From Thermoplasmatota archaeon (GTDB lineage: Archaea > Thermoplasmatota > Thermoplasmata > Thermoplasmatales > Thermoplasmataceae), in assembly GCA_023484805.1 (NCBI GenBank), contig JAMDAM010000022.1:1-38504 (forward strand): a DNA stretch of 38,504 bases, in the 5' to 3' direction. The notes beneath the pieces are model-generated. The model was not told where the DNA came from, made no database searches, and was given only the letters and a program-made list of their open reading frames with translations. Both the position numbers and the translations under genes were made by a program. Below are positions 9,798-29,759 of the stretch, one piece after another; the stretch's first letter is position 1; the number at the start of each line of letters is the position of its first letter.

Positions 9798-10814
9798 ATG
9801 AAGACTGCATATCTCGATGAGCTGAAGCATCCGCTGAGAATTGGCGAAAGTGAAATTGAGGATCCAGCGGGCGATGAGATAATTGTCAGGCAGGAAGTCA
9901 CGGGCGTGTGCTATCGTGATATCCTTACCATGGATGGATTTTTTCCCAGAGTGAGATTGCCAATAGTTCCAGGGCATGAAATTGCGGGAGAGATAGTTAA
10001 AATTGGACCGGATGTATCAAGATTCAAAGTTGGAGAGAGGGTGGCCAGCCTCATTTACATACCGTGCGGACAGTGCGAATTTTGCCGGTCTGGCCGTGAG
10101 AATCTCTGTCCCAATAAGAAAACTTTCGGAGAACTGCTTGATGGTTCATACCGGAAATATGTCAAGGTTTCAGAGAAATCCGTTGTGCACGTTCCCGAGG
10201 GTGTGGGAAATCATGAAGCGGCCATATCAGCCTGCGTGACCGGCATGATCTATCACGCCATCAGGGTTGAGGCCGGAATAAAGGAAGGTGAGACCATCCT
10301 GCTTACCGGTTCCGGAGGAGGAGTAGGAATGCATGCCATACAGATAGCAAAGGCGCTTGGAGCCAGGGTTATTGCGGAAACGTCCTCAAAGTGGAAGACA
10401 GACCAGATCCTTGCCGCAGGGGCAGACCACGTCGTTTATTCAGGAGAGGATTTCAGCAGGAAGGTAAAGGAGCTGTCCGATGGAGGTGTTGATGTTGTAC
10501 TTGAGAGCGTAGGTAAACCAACCTTCGACAGCGCCCTGAGGAGCTTGAAAACGGGCGGAAGGATGGCTGTGATTGGAAATGTGATCCCAGATCCAGTCAA
10601 CCTTCCCCTGGGACTGATAATACTCAAGGGAAACAGGATTTTCGGCAGCATAAGCTCTACCAGGGAAGACATGAAGAAAGCACTGGAATTATCTGCAGCC
10701 GGAAAAGTTAAAGCCATATCAAACATGGAAATACCATTGGATAACATAAACTCTGCATATGAAGATATCAGAAACCGCAGGAATCTTGGAAGGGTGATGA
10801 TAAAACTTGAATGA
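9798..10814 (+). CDS. Zinc-dependent alcohol dehydrogenase / acryloyl-CoA reductase-like MDR
   Basis: The 338-residue medium-chain dehydrogenase has the catalytic zinc set Cys38 (GVCYRD), His60-Glu61 (PGHE) and Cys146. The structural zinc is bound by Cys90, Cys93, Cys96 and Cys104 (PCGQCEFC, ENLC). The Rossmann motif is TGSGGGVGMHA near 168. These features match zinc alcohol dehydrogenases and the related archaeal acryloyl-CoA reductases, and sequence alone does not choose between them. A frame 13 codons longer is open, but the TATA at 9771-9778 overlaps it, so I chose the ATG at 9798, where family members begin (MKTAYL). Confidence 0.87.
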   Translation: MKTAYLDELKHPLRIGESEIEDPAGDEIIVRQEVTGVCYRDILTMDGFFPRVRLPIVPGHEIAGEIVKIGPDVSRFKVGERVASLIYIPCGQCEFCRSGRENLCPNKKTFGELLDGSYRKYVKVSEKSVVHVPEGVGNHEAAISACVTGMIYHAIRVEAGIKEGETILLTGSGGGVGMHAIQIAKALGARVIAETSSKWKTDQILAAGADHVVYSGEDFSRKVKELSDGGVDVVLESVGKPTFDSALRSLKTGGRMAVIGNVIPDPVNLPLGLIILKGNRIFGSISSTREDMKKALELSAAGKVKAISNMEIPLDNINSAYEDIRNRRNLGRVMIKLE

Positions 10815-10914
10815 ACATGCCCTTGGTGGCGGTTTCTTCCTGTGAAGAGCAGTTTATACTTCTAAATAAACCGGTCAGGAAAGTATTTATATTAAATGAT
10901 ACTGGTTCTTCACT

Positions 10915-12102
10915 ATGAAAAGCAATGCGATAGTTGTTATCGTTGCGGCAATTATAATTGTGGGGGGTATCGGATACCTGGCTTACAGTAACCCTTCATT
11001 GTTAACCGGTTCAAAATCATCTACTCCGCAGACACTGAGCGGAATGAACGTAGTTTCCACCAATACAGTAAACAGTTCCATGGGAGGCAAATGGTATGAG
11101 GGCTACAACGTGACTGGGGGACTCAGCAATATCAGCAGCCTTCAGGACTTATTTTCTGGCATGGGTAGCTCAAACGGCGGCCCTGGCATGCAGACCATAA
11201 ACAGCTCCGCAGCCCAGCTCAGGTACTTCCAGTTCGCCGGATTCGGAACACCTGCCCATAACGGATCACTGCTGTTCGGGTACATGGAATTCTCCGCCGT
11301 GAATTATACTGAATTCGTCAATAAGACACTTTCCCAGAGTACGTCCCCCATAGTCAACACCACCGGAAACTATGTCCATTATGGCATTGTTTCCGGTGCA
11401 GCATATGAGTTTGTGAGCAATAAGACCACGAACGGGTATTATGAAAATGCAATATATGCAGTCTACAGTAAGAGTATAGTTGTCGGCTTCTACATTGGCA
11501 ATGACAATATTTCTTTAGGAAATTTCACTTCTCTTGTTTCAAGTGAAGTCAGCATACTAAAGTCACAGCCGGTTAACTTCATAACTGCCGAGAAACTGGT
11601 TCAGTCGAACACGGTGAACAATGCCATGAGCGCTACAACGTGGTCAAGCGACTTCAATTTCAGCGTTAACTTCATGAGGAGCACCGGAATGCTTGGGAAC
11701 CTCATAAACAGCACATCTCCTGGATCCTTTGGCTCTGACCTGTATATAGTTAATGCTTCCTACTCGAATGTGACTGGCCTTGGCCTGGCTGCATTCTCAA
11801 ACGGCAGCAGAGGATCGCTCCTCCTGGGATATCTTGAGGCGAGAAACTCCACGCTTGCAAAATCAGCATATGAAAATCTCAGCAACAGCGTGCAAAGCGC
11901 CAGTAATTACGGTTATGCAAACGGTACAACCTCCGGGATGAAGTACTTCAATATTTCGTTCCAATTGGGGTCTGGATTCCCTGGAACAAGCATGTACGTA
12001 GTGCTGTATCAATCATACCTGATCTTTGAGGTATATGCCGGCGCACACGTTTCGAACTCTAGCCTTTTGAGTATACTTGATACGGAGTCAAGCATACTCT
12101 AA
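10915..12102 (+). CDS. Membrane-anchored surface glycoprotein with two repeated domains
   Basis: The 395-residue protein starts with a single hydrophobic helix (about residues 5-24), after which the chain is Ser/Thr/Asn-rich with more than twenty N-X-S/T sequons, so it should face outside and be glycosylated. Two halves look alike. The first (about 42-220) opens VVSTNTVNSSMGGKWYEGYN; the second (about 225-395) opens LVQSNTVNNAMSATTWSSDFN. Each then has a LLFGYMEF/LLLGYLEA strand, a helix with Asn/Ser, an IYAVYSKSIVV/MYVVLYQSYLI strand and an ending SEVSIL/TESSIL. This indicates a tandem domain duplication. TATTTATATTAAATG lies upstream of the ATG. The function is unknown; a binding or shielding role on the cell surface is a guess. 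Confidence 0.8.
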   Translation: MKSNAIVVIVAAIIIVGGIGYLAYSNPSLLTGSKSSTPQTLSGMNVVSTNTVNSSMGGKWYEGYNVTGGLSNISSLQDLFSGMGSSNGGPGMQTINSSAAQLRYFQFAGFGTPAHNGSLLFGYMEFSAVNYTEFVNKTLSQSTSPIVNTTGNYVHYGIVSGAAYEFVSNKTTNGYYENAIYAVYSKSIVVGFYIGNDNISLGNFTSLVSSEVSILKSQPVNFITAEKLVQSNTVNNAMSATTWSSDFNFSVNFMRSTGMLGNLINSTSPGSFGSDLYIVNASYSNVTGLGLAAFSNGSRGSLLLGYLEARNSTLAKSAYENLSNSVQSASNYGYANGTTSGMKYFNISFQLGSGFPGTSMYVVLYQSYLIFEVYAGAHVSNSSLLSILDTESSIL

Positions 12103-28130: not shown

Positions 28131-28146
28131 CTATATTTTAATATAG
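28131..28146 (+). promoter_or_regulatory. TATA/operator palindrome of the disrupted regulator
   Basis: CTATATT-TT-AATATAG is a perfect 7-bp inverted repeat. Its right half contains TTAATATA, 20-27 nt before the ATG at 28165. A palindrome over the TATA box just ahead of a GntR-type regulator gene suggests an autoregulatory operator. Only the first codons (ATG CAA A) of that gene remain before the inverted repeat begins. Confidence 0.5.
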
Positions 28147-28171
28147 GGTATACATTATTATATAATGCAAA

Positions 28172-28411
28172 CCGGAGGTATTCTTACTCCAAACTTTATC
28201 GTGCTCTGGGTTATGTACGGCACAATCCAGTACACCAGTCCGATAACCAGAAATACGGCAGGGGTATCTATTTCAGATGGATTCAGTCATTGCACCTCAT
28301 TTTGGTTTTGCACACCGCCTGTAGGCGATTACGTCCATTATCACTGCAACAGGCAGCAGCATCTCGATCAGCGTGAACTATCGCGTGGGGTTGACGGGGA
28401 ATATACCAGCT
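28172..28411 (+). repeat. Left arm of a 240-bp perfect inverted repeat
   Basis: This arm is the exact reverse complement of 28543-28782, reading from CCGGAGGTATTC to ATATACCAGCT. It carries no gene sense of its own: its reading frames are antisense copies of the DUF1648 gene start and the regulator tail. It sits where the winged-helix half of the regulator should be, so it is taken to be the derived copy. Confidence 0.97.
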
Positions 28412-28586
28412 CCTTGTAAAGCCTGCTTCAGGCGCCCAGGTAAAGCGATTCCTGGATGACTGGAGTTCAGTTGAGGTTAGCCTCATCAACGAGGCAAAGG
28501 CCATGGGATTCGAAGCAGAGAAGATTATGGAGATATTCAAGAAGCTGGTATATTCCCCGTCAACCCCACGCGATAGTTCACGCTGA
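28395..28586 (+). pseudogene. 3' remnant of a GntR/YtrA-like regulator
   Basis: From 28412 the frame reads as the end of a regulator: KPASGAQVKRFLDDW, then VSLINEAKAMGFEAEKIME and IFKKL, stopping at TGA 28584. The INEAKAMGFEAEKIMEIFKKL helix resembles the short C-terminal tail of YtrA-type GntR regulators, which commonly precede DUF1648-type membrane proteins as here. The N-terminal DNA-binding half (about 70 codons) is missing and replaced by the inverted copy; an in-frame TGA at 28392 closes the frame upstream. The promoter and first codons of the gene appear to survive at 28131-28171, in a different frame. The last 14 codons lie in the right arm. The family call is an inference. Confidence 0.5.
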
Positions 28587-28782
28587 TCGAGATGCTGCTG
28601 CCTGTTGCAGTGATAATGGACGTAATCGCCTACAGGCGGTGTGCAAAACCAAAATGAGGTGCAATGACTGAATCCATCTGAAATAGATACCCCTGCCGTA
28701 TTTCTGGTTATCGGACTGGTGTACTGGATTGTGCCGTACATAACCCAGAGCACGATAAAGTTTGGAGTAAGAATACCTCCGG
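28543..28782 (-). repeat. Right arm of the 240-bp inverted repeat
   Basis: This arm holds the regulator tail, a short open frame (28592-28657, 21 codons with one hydrophobic stretch) and the first 38 codons of the DUF1648 gene. Because it is continuous with that gene, it is the probable original copy. The arms are separated by 131 bp (28412-28542). After a single mismatch at the inner edge, four more bases match. The outer edge contains the palindrome CTCCGGAG (28777-28784). Confidence 0.97.
28656..28661 (+). promoter_or_regulatory. Shine-Dalgarno before a CTG start
   Basis: GAGGTG is a full match to the archaeal anti-SD core. It lies 6 nt before the CTG at 28668, the ideal distance. The ATG at 28664 is too close to it and runs into a stop after five codons. 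Confidence 0.55.
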
Positions 28783-29759
28783 AGAAGGTCAGTGACCCGG
28801 TTATTAGGAAAATGCTGAGAATATATCACGGGTGGCTCGCTCTGGTCACAATAGGCATTTTTGCGTTGTTCATAATTATCCCTGACCTTTACGGAGTCTA
28901 CAAAATTGGAACTTTTTCATATATTGCGGAAATTGCCGCGATTTATCTCATTTATTTTATGGTTCATGCCAGGCTCAAAAGAATAAAGGAGGAAAACGGA
29001 TGGTACCACGGAGCAAGAGAGGCTGCCGGCGTGCTGTTGCCTATTGCACCTCAAAGCCATGGAGACTACGTTTACACAATAATGATCTCATTTTCCGCTG
29101 TGATAGTTGCTGCGACGGTTATCATGGGCGCCATACTTTACCCGGACCTGCCTTCACTTCTCGTTACCCACTATTCCAGTAATGGGATTCCAAACGGTTT
29201 TGAAAGAAAGGATCTGATCGACGTTTTTACATTTCCGATCCTGCAACTGATTGTTACTGCAATTCTCTTCATAGTTTCATGTGCAATATGGAGAGCCAGA
29301 CAGGAAATTGAGGTATTCAGGCCGTATACTTCTTATCTGCAGCAGCTGAAATTCAAAAAGTATTACAGGTACGTGATTATCGCAATATCCATTTCACTTA
29401 ATGTTTCATTGATGCTTGTGGCGGCAATTCACTGGGGGCTGCTGAACAATAATTATGGATCCGCCCTGGATTACTTCCCGATTACCGCAGTACTACTTAT
29501 ATCTACACCCATGATTTATCTCGGCCAACAGGGAAGCAGAATAAAAACCGGGTTCCCGGAACAGCCGACCGGCTTCATCAACATGAACGATGATGTCCTA
29601 TGGAAGGGCGGAATTTTTTATTTCAACAGGTCTGATCATTCGTTTCTGGTGGCAAAGAGATTCGGTATAGGATGGACAATTAACTTCGGCAATCCTGTTA
29701 CCTGGGCAGTTCTTTTGGGAATTGTTATGGTTCCAGTATTCGGTTTATTGATCTTATAA
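28668..29759 (+). CDS. DUF1648/DUF5808 membrane protein, probable CTG start
   Basis: The 363-residue protein (from CTG) has about eight membrane helices. TM1 is AVFLVIGLVYWIVPYIT, followed by the family motif TIKFGVRIPPEKV. A DUF1648 motif appears as YPDLPSLLVTHYSSNGIP and a DUF5808 motif as DDVLWKGGIFYFNRSD then KRFGIGWTINFGNP. Relatives in bacteria are controlled by YtrA-type regulators and link to envelope stress; the exact role is unknown. The first GTG (28719) would cut TM1 in half. An in-frame TGA ends right before the CTG, which follows GAGGTG at a 6-nt spacing, so I place the start there. A one-base frameshift from the ATG at 28664 is the alternative. Confidence 0.75.
   Translation: MNPSEIDTPAVFLVIGLVYWIVPYITQSTIKFGVRIPPEKVSDPVIRKMLRIYHGWLALVTIGIFALFIIIPDLYGVYKIGTFSYIAEIAAIYLIYFMVHARLKRIKEENGWYHGAREAAGVLLPIAPQSHGDYVYTIMISFSAVIVAATVIMGAILYPDLPSLLVTHYSSNGIPNGFERKDLIDVFTFPILQLIVTAILFIVSCAIWRARQEIEVFRPYTSYLQQLKFKKYYRYVIIAISISLNVSLMLVAAIHWGLLNNNYGSALDYFPITAVLLISTPMIYLGQQGSRIKTGFPEQPTGFINMNDDVLWKGGIFYFNRSDHSFLVAKRFGIGWTINFGNPVTWAVLLGIVMVPVFGLLIL

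Follow-up and report, generated by a model that had tools for sequence, protein, structure and literature searches.

A 240-bp perfect inverted repeat in place of the winged-helix half of a YtrA-like regulator in a draft archaeal genome: a probable technical product, less likely a template switch

YtrASa of Sulfolobus acidocaldarius, for which a structure is available (6SBS), represses its own operon, which includes a membrane-protein gene (PMC6746942). Short-range template switches, as described by the four-point model (PMC7954356, PMC8794818), produce a nearby inverted copy, a return to the original template and a perfect inverted repeat. A large survey of great apes put the median length of the fragments copied in this way at 12, with 128 as the longest, and the length of the locus was unchanged in just 5.5% of cases (PMC7954356). 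In vitro, the main type of chimera formed by multiple displacement amplification is an inverted join within 10 kb, made at 2-21 nt of complementarity and arising about once per 22 kb (PMC1855051); strand-displacement chimeras (PMC9484634) are likewise short-range inverted joins primed by a few complementary bases. The locus described here shares features with each of these systems.

The locus lies in the draft genome (G000; 1.09 Mb, 56 contigs, 70.7% complete) of an acid-loving, uncultured archaeon, the one genome that represents its species in our comparison. Contig C24 of this draft, 38,504 nucleotides long, was analysed as a whole and is referred to as the window. A reading made from the sequence alone had reported two 240-bp arms that are exact reverse complements separated by a 131-bp spacer, and computation confirmed this structure (Table 1). 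Past one mismatch the match continues for four more bases (28172-28416 and 28538-28782, 244 of 245 positions matching), and the right arm has the palindrome CTCCGGAG at its outer edge. Across the whole window the arms form the sole inverted repeat of at least 24 bp within 5 kb, which places the structure far beyond chance.

Table 1 Features of the regulator locus in the window
Feature	Position	Strand	Basis or detail
Promoter and candidate operator of the regulator operon	28131-28164	+	A/T-rich palindrome CTATATT-TT-AATATAG at 28131-28146, then ACATTATTAT at 28152-28161, directly 5' of the ATG
Surviving 5' end of the regulator, ATGCAAACCGGAG	28165-28177	+	Identical sequence in G001; includes CCGGAG at 28172-28177
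Left arm, inverted copy of 28543-28782	28172-28411	-	Exact match; aligns reversed to G001 10098-10342 at 89.9%
Right-junction microhomology CAGCT	28407-28411	+	Extended imperfect match CAGCT[C/T]CTTG
C-terminal part of the regulator with stop, without its own start codon	28407-28586	+	Differs from the G001 protein at one residue here
Spacer between the arms, ancestral orientation	28412-28542	+	Comparison with G001, repeat scan
Right arm, ancestral: regulator end and DUF1648 gene start	28543-28782	+	Collinear with G001, ~88%
DUF1648/DUF5808 membrane-protein gene	28668-29759	+	363-codon frame, open from CTG 28668, with GTG 28719 as its first listed start

The closest relative (G001), whose DNA is ~90% identical to that of G000, encodes at the same place an intact GntR/YtrA-like regulator of 135 codons (L024:9739-10146) followed by a DUF1648 gene, with flanks 91% and 88% identical to the window. 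The G001 protein has a GntR winged helix at residues 17-76 of 135 (PF00392, 1e-10), followed by a short C-terminal part; of the solved structures, 6SBS matches it best (7.7e-17). Intact regulators are also present in G002 and G003 (90% and 81% identical to that of G001, respectively). The comparison with related genomes thus yielded the intact regulator anticipated from the sequence, although at 135 rather than about 125 codons. What remains of the regulator in the window is ATGCAAACCGGAG and the last 59 codons; positions 28404-28583 are 97% identical to residues 76-135 of the G001 protein, and a profile search detected PF00392 neither there nor in 28165-28416. The earlier proposal that a GntR/YtrA-like regulator has lost its winged-helix half to an inverted copy of downstream DNA therefore holds for the assembled sequence. 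Alignment and a PF07853 match likewise bear out that the regulator tail follows the left arm while the DUF1648 gene continues from the right arm. At the DNA level no intact copy of the regulator segment was found elsewhere in the draft, which holds only a 36% paralogue within an intact regulator/DUF1648 pair on contig C29.

The ancestral locus resembles the YtrASa operon in its order of a GntR/YtrA-like regulator and a membrane-protein gene. It differs in that the membrane protein is of the DUF1648/DUF5808 type (PF07853, 2.6e-10; PF19124, 1.1e-11) and that the regulator in the draft is without a winged helix. By analogy with YtrASa, the segment upstream of the regulator may act as operator of its operon. 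Within it, ACATTATTAT is invariant across four species of the genus while its surroundings vary, and this element just 5' of the regulator ATG is a candidate operator or start-site element.

Two smaller observations concern the coding regions. Between 28656 and 28685 the DUF1648 frame has no ATG, GTG or TTG near the GAGGTG, and it opens at CTG 28668; the ATG at 28664 yields merely a five-codon out-of-frame peptide. The start region of the G001 gene is alike, and the open frame in G002 likewise begins LNP. Use of a non-standard CTG start by this gene is possible. In both G000 and G001 the C-terminal part of the regulator (28482-28556) matches PF09288 (UBA_3, a UBA-type domain model) barely above the cut-off, which would be unusual for a YtrA-like protein and is possibly a chance helical match.

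Right arm and spacer align collinearly with G001 and thus keep the ancestral arrangement, which makes the left arm the newly made copy. Two long inverted repeats flanking a spacer could also be read as the terminal repeats of a mobile or invertible element. This reading is refuted by the same collinearity, in both G001 and G002, which identifies the right arm and spacer as ancestral chromosomal genes; moreover, the spacer has no transposase or recombinase, and no third copy was found in the 863 kb of the draft scanned for inverted repeats (79% of it). We regard such an element as practically excluded. The left arm equals the right arm of the window and is only 89.9% identical to the corresponding DNA of G001, so the copy derives from G000 itself. 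A chimera with DNA of a co-occurring relative was rejected on this ground.

Counted between the microhomologies, 229 new bases (28178-28406) replace 215 of G001 (L024:9752-9966). At the left join G001 reads ...CAAACCGGAG and then, past the break, TATTC, against CTCCGGAGGTATTC in the donor; CCGGAG is common to both and is also present in G002. At the right join AAACAGCTCCTTG stands against ATACCAGCTTCTTG, with CAGCT in common. Random inverted joins in the same DNA share at least five bases in 0.5% of trials and at least six in 0.16%. Gene conversion between old inverted paralogues was considered and rejected, because alignments of the lost segment with the reversed donor are gap-ridden and reveal no clear homology; their scores lie at z ~2-2.5 above shuffles, single-base shuffles being a lenient control.

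A second event of the same form was found on contig C12 of the draft (L049), with arms at 10871-11085 and 11389-11603 (215 bp, zero differences). Relative to G001:C66, 203 bp have replaced 204, and the joins have microhomologies of five (TGACC) and four (TGGT) bases. The G001 counterpart is an intact gene for a thermopsin-type protein of 1015 aa (thermopsin/PEGA surface protein), while in G000 the gene is interrupted, leaving frames of 294 and 669 aa. Perfect inverted repeats of like size with a short spacer were absent from the 1.35 Mb of relatives scanned (G001, 238 kb; G002, 400 kb; G003, 313 kb; four closed family genomes, 400 kb) and from 1.55 Mb in 160 phage metagenome contigs. These control samples, of moderate size, contained a few diverged repeats and, in G002, one widely spaced pair. 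The footprint is therefore particular to G000. From base counts, the probability that both events fall in G000 at equal rates is ~0.05, which is statistically weak; the probability that arms of 240 and 215 bp would both be unmutated is ~0.002 if events were uniform since the ~10% split from G001.

Both loci could record a real and very recent mutation, in which, during replication, the growing strand left its template at CCGGAG for the opposite strand ~600 bp further on, was extended there in reverse for 240 bases and returned at CAGCT, knocking out the regulator and leaving a long inverted repeat, with a like course in the thermopsin-type gene. The four-point pattern is complete, with ancestral sequence on both sides of the inverted fragment, a return, and microhomology at both joins, in agreement with the template switch first suggested from the sequence; the donor is also the genome's own DNA rather than that of a co-occurring relative. 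Long template switches are known in principle. The copied fragments of 240 and 215 bp nevertheless exceed the published maximum of 128, a range from apes that only lowers the likelihood of membership in this class (PMC7954356), and, unlike the described switches with their median of 12, they are near length-neutral and occur twice in one draft. Both are unmutated and both break conserved genes; no decayed example was seen, and none in relatives. We consider a real template switch a serious explanation, though one that falls well short of even chances. Improbable, in our view, is the further idea that the lineage is truly prone to frequent long (200-250 bp) inverted template switches, caused by defective processing of hairpins or stalled forks, whose gene-breaking perfect repeats are soon lost.

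Five pairs of contigs in the draft, among them L108/L111, L047/L119 and L044/L061, have exact 127-bp end overlaps, which identifies a k=127 de Bruijn assembly. Such an assembler requires reads over each join and cannot invent joins with 5-base overlaps, so molecules with these joins existed in the library. This supports a real mutation, and it weighs against an artefact in that four joins, two per locus, must each occur in reads, their overlaps of 4-6 bases being far below k; in an unamplified metagenome, normal reads should also outvote them. Contigs C14 (L051) and C15 (L052) of the draft are 93.4% identical to each other across 11.5 kb. C14 is 100% identical to G001:C37 across the 3 kb tested and C15 is the 94% version; judged by sequence identity, C14 looks like a stray contig of a co-occurring relative binned into G000. 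The G001 strain would thus also be present in the same setting.

On balance we favour, with modest confidence, a technical origin of the left arm in sequencing or assembly, in which the contig was led through inverted chimeric molecules. While the DNA was being amplified or made into a library, a 3' end would leave its template and pair, over 5-6 bases, with the opposite strand at a distance of several hundred bases, so that such molecules arose. The k=127 assembler would then follow a path of near-equal length through the chimeric joins and the well-covered downstream copy, and discard the true regulator segment. Some assemblers drop one of two paths when an alternative of similar length exists, without comparing the letters, and such dropping by length would explain the equal exchange lengths.

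Several findings point to this technical origin. The same draft holds a second event in which 200-odd bases are replaced by a nearby inverted copy. Both exchanges are near length-neutral (229 for 215 and 203 for 204), as an alternative path of matching length gives, and the arms are identical at both loci. Both events break conserved genes, the regulator being intact in G001-G003 and the thermopsin-type gene in G001, and the draft is a k=127 de Bruijn assembly. As in inverted chimeras made in vitro, two nearby segments are joined in inverted orientation, and the 6 and 5 bases at the regulator locus and the 5 and 4 on C12 lie within the 2-21 nt of complementarity. The chimera that the sequence-only reading had offered as its alternative is thus the favoured reading, owing to the second event. 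A single fold-back of the usual multiple-displacement kind is insufficient, as two joins, out and back, are needed. The known chimeras (PMC1855051, PMC9484634) usually have one such join, whereas here there are two per locus with near-equal lengths, a difference that we attribute to assembly. A general artefact of metagenome contigs was rejected on the zero cases among the 160 phage contigs (1.55 Mb), and the technical cause would have to be specific to this sample.

If the structure were real, its consequences for expression would be ambiguous. The regulator would be without its DNA-binding part and transcription might be derepressed, a fair guess by analogy with YtrASa. The predicted transcript, however, would begin with a perfect 240-bp hairpin (-547 kcal/mol; shuffles, -192), and the DUF1648 frame would start inside it, whether at 28668 or 28719, which makes poor translation no less likely than overexpression. 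The suggestion that the membrane gene is now deregulated is accordingly not supported. A selected rearrangement, in which loss of the YtrA repressor raises or switches expression of the membrane protein and the hairpin serves as a new control element, would draw on this stability and on the autorepression by YtrASa (PMC6746942). Loss of expression is equally likely with the hairpin over the downstream start, no relative examined has such a structure, C29 holds the intact paralogous pair, and the thermopsin event implies a process that is not specific to this operon. We therefore judge selection for altered regulation very unlikely.

The two loci define a footprint for which draft genomes can be scanned: two inverted arms of 200-odd bases with zero divergence, a length-neutral exchange and microhomologies at the edges. 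Such a scan would flag genes that falsely look broken and prevent annotation from recording regulator losses that never happened. Should reads establish the structure as real, the archaeon would have undergone a template-switch mutation of unusual length. In the organism itself, this locus probably encodes an ordinary YtrA-like regulator that is intact.
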